Part shown: piece by piece, positions 44,066 through 47,598 of the stretch
How the letters are laid out: every line of letters starts with the position of its first letter
Numbering within the stretch: the first letter of the stretch is position 1
DNA from: Nitrososphaerota archaeon
Lineage (GTDB): Archaea; Thermoproteota; Nitrososphaeria; Nitrososphaerales; Gagatemarchaeaceae
DNA: 47,598 nt
Reading direction: 5' to 3'
Assembly (NCBI GenBank): GCA_027886825.1
Contig: JAPCJS010000004.1
Coordinates: 1 to 47,598, forward strand
The notes under the pieces: model-generated
What the model was told of the DNA's origin: nothing
Seen by the model: only the letters and a program-made list of their open reading frames with translations
The model's database searches: none
Program-made: the position numbers and the translations under genes

Positions 44066-45283
44066 CTAGCCTCTCCTCGCGGTCGAGACGATCGACAGCA
44101 CGTCTCTGTCTCTCAGGACATAGTCTGTGGGAAGGTGGATCCCGGTCCTGACGTCGACGGCGTAGAGGAGACCCTTGTGCAGGTCGGAGTGGACAGTCCT
44201 CGCAAGGTCATCGAGGGTCGAACCGGTCGGGAGAAGATATACGTCAGGCAGGACGTTCCCGCTCTTGTCGGTCAGCTTCTCCGGGTCCGCCACCGGATAG
44301 ATGGCGTTCATCTTGAGCAGCTTGAATATCGTTATGCTGAGCGCGAACTGGACCCCTGTCCTCAGGTACTCCCCGAAGACCTTCCTCTTGATGTACGCCA
44401 GCGCGGTCCGCTGGGCGTCGTTCAGCCCCTGCGGCTTTACGACATCGAACCGTTCCTCGCCCGGGACATATTTTATGAGCCCCTTCGACTGTGCCCTTCT
44501 CAGAGAGAGCTCGGCTTCCCCGCTCGTCGGGACCACGATGAGGTCTTTGTAGTGCTCCCGCAGCTTCTTGAAGTTCTCTGCGGCGTTGGGCAGGTCCATC
44601 TTGTTCGCTATGATGAGGGTGGGTTTTGAGACGTCCCGGAGTATCCAGCAGAAGTTCTGGGTCTCCTTCTCGTTCCAGTCCTCTATGTCCTTCCCCTCCA
44701 GGAGCGCCTCCTTGAGGGAGAAGCTCACGTGCTCCTTCCTGACGCCGATCCCTTGCATCACGTCGGCTATAGCGGTGCTCACGTCTCCTCCTGGCTGCTT
44801 CGCAGCCTTGGCTATCTTCCCCATGTTGCTCGAGAACATCTTCGTGTACCAGAGCACGAGCTCAAGCTCCACGTCGGCGAAGTCTGCGATAGGGTCTCCG
44901 GTGCCTGTCTCAGTCACCCTTCCTTCCTTGTCGACGCTGCCCGAAGCATCGACCACGTGGAGCAGGGCGTCCGACTGGGCGGCCACCGCAAGGAACTGAT
45001 TGCCGAGCCCCTTCCCCATGTATGCCCCCTTGATCAGGCCAGGAAGGTCCGTGACCTCTATCGGGATGAACCTCCACCCCTCCTCGCACTTGGAGTTCTT
45101 CGGATTGTCCTTCACGCCGAACTCCTTGTGGACGCAGAGCGTCACCACTTCGGCCACGCCCACGTTCGGAGACTTTGTGGTGAACGGATAGTTAGAGACC
45201 TCGGCGGCCTGAAGCGTCATGGAGTTGAATAGGGTCGTCTTACCCGCGTTGGTCTTTCCGATGATACCGATTCGGATGGGCAT
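44066..45283 (-). CDS. YchF/Obg-family GTPase with C-terminal TGS domain
   Basis: 'RIGIIGKTNAGKTTLFNSMTLQAAEVSNYPFTTKSPNVGVAEV', 'TDLPGLIKGAYMGKGLGNQFL', 'NKMD'. Confidence 0.93.
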   Translation of the reverse strand: MPIRIGIIGKTNAGKTTLFNSMTLQAAEVSNYPFTTKSPNVGVAEVVTLCVHKEFGVKDNPKNSKCEEGWRFIPIEVTDLPGLIKGAYMGKGLGNQFLAVAAQSDALLHVVDASGSVDKEGRVTETGTGDPIADFADVELELVLWYTKMFSSNMGKIAKAAKQPGGDVSTAIADVMQGIGVRKEHVSFSLKEALLEGKDIEDWNEKETQNFCWILRDVSKPTLIIANKMDLPNAAENFKKLREHYKDLIVVPTSGEAELSLRRAQSKGLIKYVPGEERFDVVKPQGLNDAQRTALAYIKRKVFGEYLRTGVQFALSITIFKLLKMNAIYPVADPEKLTDKSGNVLPDVYLLPTGSTLDDLARTVHSDLHKGLLYAVDVRTGIHLPTDYVLRDRDVLSIVSTARRG

Positions 45284-45422: not shown

Positions 45423-47598
45423 TTATGTCCTGTACCTGAGGAAACCGGCGACCCCGCCGAACGACTTTAGCATCGCTCCCTCTTCAGACCCCGAGGATAT
45501 CATCTCGACCCTGGCGCCTATCTGGACGGCCTTCTCCTCCAGCATGTCCACCACGTCCGATTCGTCTATCTCGTAATCGGTGGCACCGCACTTTGAGCAC
45601 GGCTCGCTGAGCATCTCCTGCATGGTCTGCATCTTCTTCTGGTTCTCGACGACCTTCTCCTTCACGGTCTGGCAGTTCTTGCAGGTCATCTTGATCTTCA
45701 CGATGTTGATGTCGTCAGAGATCAGGATCGTGTCCATGTTGGATTTGTTGAGGGCGTCGATGATCTTGGGGAGACCGTAGACGGCGAGCCCGTTGGGCCT
45801 GTTGATCTCTCCCAGGAACTTTTGGACGAGCTTCCTCTCCTCGATCAGCCGCACATCCTGGAGCTTGTCCGAGGCCTTCTCGACGATCTCGCGGATGCCT
45901 TCCCTGCCCGAGTATGAGATGTCGATGACCTCTATGATGTTGTTCTGGAGCCGATAGTCGAGATACCCTCCCTTTAGGAAGTTCTCCTTGGTGGGGCCCG
46001 GACCTCCTACGATGACTCCGTTCACGTGGTGGTCGGTGATGAAGATCCGGGTGACGTGTTCGGAGACCCTGTTGAAGAAGTAGGTGAGCTCCATCTCCCG
46101 GCCCCTCTCGTACCTCCTGGCGCTCTGGCCTCCCTTCCTCGTCTTTCCCGATATCCCTGAGGTCATGAGGTCCTCAATGTCCAGCCTGTCCCCCGACAGG
46201 ATCCCTATGCCTGCCTCGTTCGAATCCAGGGAGAGGATGCCGTAGACCTTTTCCGCCTTGAGCATGTCCTTGAGGTACTCGACGTGGAAGTGATCGTCGC
46301 AGTTGTGCACAAGGAAGCCGTTCGCAAAGAAGCTGTGGCTTTCGCTCCCGACGGTCAGATCTCTGACGTCTTCGATGGCTTCACCCTCTATCGAAACGAC
46401 GCTCTCCCACAGGAGCGGCTCCTGCAGGCCTGTCTGTGCGATGCTCAGCCACCCATCAAACGACGGTAGCTGGCTGGCTTTGACCATTGGCTTATGGGTC
46501 GTCTCTTGGACCAGGCTGACCATCGTCTTCTGGGATGACCCCTGAAATTCACCGGCCTTTGCCTGTCGCCCCTCCTCTGTGAGGTCTATCGCCCTGGTGG
46601 CTCTCTGTCTGTTCTCATGGCGTATCCGGGACTTGATTCGAAGGTACTCCCCTATCATGCTCATGCTCAGGGATTTCTGCGAACAATATCTGACCCCGAT
46701 GACATGGCACAGATTCAGAATGTTATCCTCGGATAGTTTGAAACGCAGGCGGATCTCCTGCGTGACGGAACCATCCTTGCGTCTGTAACCGGGTTTGCGT
46801 TCGACCGCGTTTGTGACGACGCCGAACCTAGAGAGCAGCAGCACGAGCTGGTCTGCAAACTTCAGCCCCGAGTTCTCTTTCTCGATCACCCTGTGGAAAC
46901 CTACGCTTGACTGACTGACGAGATTGCGGCCCACGATCCTCGGAACGGTCGCATCTCCTCCCAGGTAGGCTGCCAGGAATTCCCGCTGCGCGTCCAGGGG
47001 ACCATCGACCAGCCACGATGGGATCTTTGTCCCGTTCTTCACCTTGTCCCCTACCGGGGCTCCCAGTGCTCGGAACAACGCAGCTATACCGGCGTCTCGC
47101 AGTTTCACATGCCTTGTGTGGGCGACGTATGGCCTCCCCTCAACGTTCATCTCGTATGATACCTCGTAACCTTCAGGGAGCTTCCGGCCGAGCTTTGCAA
47201 AATCATTCCTTATCTCGTCTTCGTCTGACCTGGACCCGACGCAGAAATCAAAGGTGTAGGAAGAATAAGTGCCGTTTCGCCTTTGTTCGGTCGTAGCGTA
47301 GAACGAGCCGTCGCTGAACAGGTGCCCGAGTATCCTGGCGATCGCAGGAACCCTCGGATCATCGGAGCGCAGCGGCAACAGACCCTGCTTTTTCAGCCTC
47401 TTGATCGCCAGGCCGATGTTCTTCGGGGGTGAAGGAAGTCTCCGCAGATGCGCTTCGTCAAAGAGCACCTCACTCGAGCGATGCCTCTTCTTCTCGTCCC
47501 CTGGGGATTCGATATCGGCTACGGGCATCACACACACGAGGTCTCCCTTCTTGAGCTGACCCAGCCTGATCCATCCTCTGGCTGTCTGGAACGGATGA
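45423..47598 (-). CDS. prf1: peptide chain release factor aRF1, C-extein plus in-frame intein; N-extein lies outside the window
   Basis: 'GGQSARRYERGREMELTYFFNRVSEHV' (GGQ motif), 'SKCGATDYEI' zinc site; frame stays open to the window edge. Confidence 0.92.
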   Translation of the reverse strand, partial: HPFQTARGWIRLGQLKKGDLVCVMPVADIESPGDEKKRHRSSEVLFDEAHLRRLPSPPKNIGLAIKRLKKQGLLPLRSDDPRVPAIARILGHLFSDGSFYATTEQRRNGTYSSYTFDFCVGSRSDEDEIRNDFAKLGRKLPEGYEVSYEMNVEGRPYVAHTRHVKLRDAGIAALFRALGAPVGDKVKNGTKIPSWLVDGPLDAQREFLAAYLGGDATVPRIVGRNLVSQSSVGFHRVIEKENSGLKFADQLVLLLSRFGVVTNAVERKPGYRRKDGSVTQEIRLRFKLSEDNILNLCHVIGVRYCSQKSLSMSMIGEYLRIKSRIRHENRQRATRAIDLTEEGRQAKAGEFQGSSQKTMVSLVQETTHKPMVKASQLPSFDGWLSIAQTGLQEPLLWESVVSIEGEAIEDVRDLTVGSESHSFFANGFLVHNCDDHFHVEYLKDMLKAEKVYGILSLDSNEAGIGILSGDRLDIEDLMTSGISGKTRKGGQSARRYERGREMELTYFFNRVSEHVTRIFITDHHVNGVIVGGPGPTKENFLKGGYLDYRLQNNIIEVIDISYSGREGIREIVEKASDKLQDVRLIEERKLVQKFLGEINRPNGLAVYGLPKIIDALNKSNMDTILISDDINIVKIKMTCKNCQTVKEKVVENQKKMQTMQEMLSEPCSKCGATDYEIDESDVVDMLEEKAVQIGARVEMISSGSEEGAMLKSFGGVAGFLRYRT
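46302..47598 (-). mobile_element. aRF1 intein with LAGLIDADG/DOD homing endonuclease (N-terminal end cut by window edge)
   Basis: Block B-like 'HPFQTARGWIRLGQLKKGDLV', endonuclease motifs 'ILGHLFSDGSF' and 'FLAAYLGGDATV', C-terminal 'VGSESHSFFANGFLVHN|C'. Confidence 0.93.

Follow-up and report, generated by a model that had tools for sequence, protein, structure and literature searches.

A LAGLIDADG-type intein in the archaeal release factor gene aRF1, an intein host with two insertion sites

The window analyzed here, a whole stretch of 47,598 nucleotides from a Nitrososphaerota archaeon, ends in a minus-strand reading frame in which a polypeptide of the Hint/homing endonuclease type runs directly into the translation termination factor aRF1. 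The question raised by this locus is whether a working release factor gene is interrupted by an intein, where in the protein the insertion lies and how the element came to be there. A reading made from the sequence alone, hereafter the sequence-only reading, had proposed such an intein, and we followed it up with profile searches, structure models and a search for relatives covering 101 genomes, namely the window's own genome (G000, a MAG) and 100 relatives.

The reading frame at the contig end

The minus-strand ORF, open from the contig edge at 47597, translates into 724 residues with no internal stop before its stop codon at 45423-45425. Its residues 1-432 correspond to the intein, which ends in ...FLVHN in frame with the aRF1 part, and residues 433-724 to a C-extein of 292 aRF1 amino acids (45426-46301), so that the boundary at 46302 given in the sequence-only reading proved exact. 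Both parts were recognized in profile searches: TIGR03676 (aRF1_eRF1) matched residues 430-724 (4.7e-89), with Pfam eRF1_2 (7.7e-33) and eRF1_3 (9e-21) found in the C-extein, and RtcB_rel_intein matched residues 1-434 (3.2e-48). The intein C-terminal profile TIGR01443 matched residues 410-433 (1.9e-7), where blocks F and G read VRDLTV...HSFFANGFLVHN|C, that is, a terminal His-Asn followed by Cys, as had been recognized in the sequence-only reading. HNCD[DN]xF, the pattern of the junction, was matched at a single place in the window and nowhere in shuffled sequences. The two LAGLIDADG-type motifs lie where they had been placed, at residues 89-99 and 207-218, with their acidic residues kept, and Pfam LAGLIDADG_3 gave a match starting at residue 203 (9e-5). 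Taken with the complete orthologue of G008 described below, the TIGR03676, RtcB_rel_intein and TIGR01443 matches bear out the proposed intein in aRF1. Pfam Intein_splicing scored 26.8 bits (5.1e-6), under its cut-off of 35.8, probably because the N-terminal half of the Hint domain is off the contig.

Table 1. Coordinates of the features of the aRF1 locus in the window
Feature	Positions	Strand	Remarks
Intein at aRF1 site a	46302..47597	-	432 residues, from 'HPF' of Hint block B to the terminal 'HN'
First LAGLIDADG-type motif, ILGHLFSDGSF	47301..47333	-	acidic residue kept
Second LAGLIDADG-type motif, FLAAYLGGDATV	46944..46979	-	acidic residue kept
Hint blocks F and G, VRDLTVGSESHSFFANGFLVHN	46302..46367	-	TIGR01443 (1.9e-7) and alignment
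C-extein, aRF1 from the eRF1 Cys127 equivalent to the stop codon	45423..46301	-	TIGR03676; alignment to 1dt9 residues 127-416
+1 Cys codon, predicted splicing nucleophile, the Cys of YxCxxxF	46299..46301	-	alignment
GGQ motif; site b (GGQ/S) unoccupied in the window	46125..46133	-	comparison with relatives
OBG/YchF-like GTPase gene, downstream context outside the intein	44066..45283	-	family name from sequence appearance only

The contig (C151) ends at 47598, inside the intein, and since it is 47598 bases long the missing N-terminus reflects an assembly edge. Judged from the 507-aa G008 orthologue, about 74 N-terminal intein residues (Cys1 to TED) lie off the contig: the window intein begins at the H of HPF where orthologues read TEDHPF at block B. 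The aRF1 part shows eRF1 domains 2 and 3, the GGQ motif and the C...F of the decoding motif, with domain 1, NIKS and the Tyr off-contig. No copy of the contig-terminal 300 bases and no contig-end overlap was found elsewhere in the MAG. The N-extein and the first Cys, which the sequence-only reading expected past the contig end, are likewise not found elsewhere in the MAG and are present in the orthologous G008 precursor.

Complete relatives and the two insertion sites

The best match after the window itself was G008, a Thaumarchaeota MAG of the same family carrying an unbroken 1456-aa aRF1 ORF. G008, G014 and G016, which recur below, are Thaumarchaeota archaeon TA_8, TA_14 and TA_13, and scaffold names of the relatives (e.g. 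14_0903_05_40cm) suggest soil depth samples. The G008 ORF holds the N-extein, two inteins and the C-extein in one frame, and shows NIKS, YxCxxxF and GGQ together with all three eRF1 domains. With a slash marking each junction, site a reads ...PKPVSTYLYM/CVAPET...FLVHN/CDDHYHLEWL... around an intein of 507 aa, and a second site, b, reads ...GKTRKGGQ/CVSSDT...FVLHN/SARRYERARE... around an intein of 527 aa, followed by the aRF1 C-terminus. The site-a inteins of G008 and the window share 59% identity over 432 residues and their junctions are identical. In silico removal of the inteins from the complete precursors (G008, G012, G031 and G033) yielded proteins of 420-422 aa compared to 418-427 aa for the uninterrupted aRF1s of the family, in keeping with the aRF1 identity proposed for the spliced protein; this length comparison was made on the relatives, the window contributing its C-extein only.

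A Cys occupies intein position 1 in the site-a orthologues of G008 and G014, as it does in each of the six complete site-b inteins, and the class-1 set (Cys1, TEDH, block F Asp and His, HN and +1 Cys) is complete in the full orthologues. The G008 site-a intein was modelled with AlphaFold (pLDDT 72), and the model matched TliVMA, PI-PfuI, 2cw7 (archaeal intein endonuclease II) and PI-SceI first, with E-values of 2.6e-14 to 2.9e-9, Hint mini-inteins ranking next. TM-scores of this model were low (0.25-0.4), the domains matching but not their arrangement, because relative domain placement is unreliable. The model of the window ORF itself (pLDDT 40.6) was uninformative. The site-b inteins, as at L034 2686-4266(-) and L035 1634-3214(-), contain one more domain, a DNA-binding HTH_3, which lies between their Hint and LAGLIDADG parts.

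In the alignment to human eRF1 (1dt9), the +1 Cys of the window falls on residue 127, query residue 2 being paired with chain residue 127. By this alignment site a splits the stop-codon-reading motif YxCxxxF at the end of the N-domain, eRF1 Cys127 being the +1 residue. The insertion had been located directly before the Cys of CDxxFH, which stands; its assignment to the start of the central region, the catalytic middle domain, does not. Site b, as read in the relatives, adjoins the catalytic motif, between the Gln of GGQ and the next Ser. Cys127 of YxCxxxF is highly conserved in eRF1/aRF1 and has been linked to recognition of the second base of the stop codon, and the Gln of GGQ coordinates the catalytic water (PMC5681627). 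When local conservation was ranked, the site-b neighbourhood fell in the top 1.5% of windows and site a in the top 28% only, so that extreme local conservation is supported for site b and not for site a. Both the second site and the site-a replacement described below are seen in relatives only, beyond the reach of the sequence-only reading.

Distribution, origin and mobility

A recognizable aRF1 is encoded in 31 of the 46 family genomes. Site a is occupied in four of these, site b in six and both in three, and 24 are uninterrupted, which answers the call of the sequence-only reading for a survey of empty sites. Both sites are occupied in G008, G014 and G016; site b alone is occupied in G012, G031, G033 and, in another family of the same order, G097. 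All five congeners of G000 that have an aRF1 are empty; in the sister genome G001 the empty site a reads FLYM/CDDHF (site sequence TTCCTTTACATG^TGCGACGATCACTTCC). The extein tree joins G000 and G001 as sisters (94/85) inside an empty clade, and the minimum number of state changes is two for site a and five for site b. Junction patterns, which miss Ser1 inteins at site b and non-HN ends at site a, were also run on 398 sampled genomes of the Thermoproteota, the phylum in which we take GTDB to place Thaumarchaeota, with no match for site b and only the window genome having ORF support for site a; as this sample has only two family genomes (G000 and G013), the resulting rarity concerns organisms outside the family. 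Site-a pattern matches in G167 and G218 were rejected as chance, having no supporting ORF. On viral contigs no relative of intein b was found, and intein a gave only weak, partial Hint matches.

The survey also brought up several irregularities. No aRF1 was detectable in 15 of the 46 genomes (G003, G004, G019, G020, G023, G024, G026, G027, G028, G035, G039, G040, G041, G043 and G045), most of which have pelota only; several have an estimated completeness of 88-91%, and one of these is in 3 contigs. Incompleteness is the probable cause, yet there are more such genomes than expected. In G044 (L100 3-560(-) and L101) a full-length aRF1 without interruption lies on C20 and a further, fragmentary aRF1 on C10; the fragment stops at a contig edge near the GGQ site and is possibly a strain allele with an assembly-breaking site-b intein. 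The aRF1 proteins of G042 (L006) and G006 (L007) are identical despite different genera (g7 and g1), likely through mis-binning or mislabelling. The G016 aRF1 (L038, ~1265-1520) has a frameshift near the C-terminus, its last 40 residues lying in another frame.

In the intein tree the aRF1-a inteins form one clade (100/100), whose closest relative among the sampled alleles is an RpoB intein (99/99, on a long branch), followed by uS12 (88/86) and then RtcB inteins. The site-b inteins form a lineage of their own, the closest sampled allele being a GlmS-like intein; hence unrelated inteins entered aRF1 on at least two occasions. Within the same archaeal family, the inteins of RpoB and uS12 (rpsL) resemble aRF1-a in Hint layout and Cys +1 but differ in host genes and sites, and are only ~28-36% identical to it. 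The RtcB intein (NF038162, RtcB_rel_intein), the best NCBIfam intein match of the window, has Cys1 and a +1 Cys, but resides in an RNA ligase and forms a separate clade in the intein tree. The RpoB intein (L089 9275-14182(-) in G031) reads ETPEGVN/C...THN/CGLVKNLA, and the GlmS-like intein interrupts an aminotransferase starting MCGIIGCVAEE (L099 997-4251(+) in G033). Inteins of ~510 aa were found in uS12 at L090 1719-3707(-) in G005 and at L091-L095 and L089 in G025, G026, G033, G010, G022 and G031, with a host match to PF00164 (2.2e-39) plus Intein_splicing; their site, QPNSAIRK/C...GN or SN/C, is the PNSA loop near the decoding centre. The uS12 gene is uninterrupted in the window's own genome, and a literature search conducted mostly outside subscription journals returned no report of a ribosomal-protein S12 intein.

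Mobility could be followed in G008 and G016. The C-exteins of these two genomes are 99% identical at the amino acid level (dS 0.083) and their b inteins 96% identical (dS 0.06), as compared to 56-59% amino acid identity and a dS of 1.67, near saturation, for intein a. The last 30 bases of intein a match at 28 of 30 positions, segments further in at 16-24 of 30 and the extein at 28-30 of 30 throughout, identity thus falling within ~30 bases of the intein/extein junction. On these figures one gene carries two long-diverged site-a inteins, for which vertical descent is no explanation, and the comparison identifies a horizontal replacement of intein a between the G008 and G016 gene copies. Together with patchy occupancy, this replacement gives indirect support for mobility into empty alleles. 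The site-a inteins of G014 and G016 (the first residues of the latter lying off its contig) have no endonuclease; their deletion ends differ and the splicing blocks are kept. For intein a the dN/dS between G008 and G014 is 0.18. No co-conversion tract was seen in the C-extein of G000. Full-length inteins, mini-inteins and empty sites correspond to the stages that the literature describes for homing.

Competing explanations and implications

The window very probably contains a LAGLIDADG homing intein in a single-copy aRF1 gene, whose splicing would be required for an active release factor. The aRF1 precursor would be translated whole, intein included. The Hint domain would then follow the class-1 route, with an N-S acyl shift at Cys1, transfer to the +1 Cys (eRF1 Cys127), Asn cyclisation and an S-N shift, rejoining ...LYM to CDDHFH... 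and restoring YxCxxxF, so that aRF1 would be active only after splicing. At the DNA level, aRF1 alleles free of the intein would be targets for the endonuclease at site a, the intein then being copied in during repair. We infer splicing, endonuclease activity and, for G000, an intact off-contig N-terminus.

That the window copy is instead a pseudogene or an assembly join, a fragment left by decay or chimerism rather than a working aRF1, is very improbable, even though the contig ends within the intein and the N-extein is absent from a MAG estimated at 90.8% completeness and 5% contamination. The 724-codon frame is open, and the C-extein, which is 90% identical to that of the empty congener G001, is under strong purifying selection by its dN/dS of 0.075; no second intact aRF1 was found in the MAG, the sole related protein being pelota, on C83. 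The decayed copy considered in the sequence-only reading therefore fails as an explanation. Moreover, the junction is identical in three other assemblies and gene order is conserved: the GTPase gene adjoins aRF1 also in G001, G002, G005, G007, G008, G010, G014 and G042, with and without an intein in aRF1, which makes this the orthologous locus. The genomes are almost all MAGs or metagenome assemblies and chimeric contigs may occur, yet several separate assemblies agree. Hint domains can also cleave without ligation, and an intein acting in a Hedgehog-type or bacterial intein-like manner would leave two cooperating aRF1 pieces; this is hardly credible here, given the full class-1 residue set of the complete orthologues and a cut inside a decoding motif which needs both its sides.

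The intein might otherwise have been domesticated as a switch, splicing at Cys127 responding to redox or stress and metering translation termination. Both nucleophiles are Cys in the complete site-a orthologues, the insertion lies within the decoding motif and splicing-only mini-inteins are kept in two relatives; PMC5790916 and PMC6195587 report that other inteins, of archaea and mycobacteria, splice conditionally. We nevertheless regard such a role as improbable, since a scattered occurrence, congeners without the intein, loss of the endonuclease more than once and horizontal replacement are what a selfish element produces, and the data hold no sign of a benefit or condition. It is just as doubtful that the inteins at both aRF1 motifs are stress-sensitive maturation switches throttling termination in these soil Thaumarchaeota.

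A homing intein in aRF1 thus remains the preferred reading, and aRF1 is, by the literature covered, a new intein host with two new alleles of an already known kind of element. The inteins known so far are concentrated in genes of replication, repair and metabolism. Our literature search, outside InBase and most subscription journals, returned no report of an aRF1 or eRF1 intein, and aRF1 is absent from the Halobacteria and eukaryote host lists and from a general review, as the sequence-only reading had surmised. The Bodo saltans virus paper lists eRF1 and inteins, the latter in other genes, and a survey counted one intein in 18 Thaumarchaeota genomes (PMC10643990). The haloarchaeal MCM inteins a and d (PMC10643990) are similarly neighbouring inteins at catalytic motifs of one essential gene, but in a replication helicase of Euryarchaeota, and the IF2/eIF5B intein (PMC5784728) shares a translation factor host but concerns initiation and eukaryotes rather than termination.

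In this family an essential single-copy termination factor has been invaded independently at both of its functional motifs. Mature aRF1 would be needed to terminate translation of its own precursor, and the cell would hence depend on efficient splicing. The full-length, mini and empty alleles, together with a near-identical gene carrying two different inteins, document in one locus how the homing cycle runs in nature.
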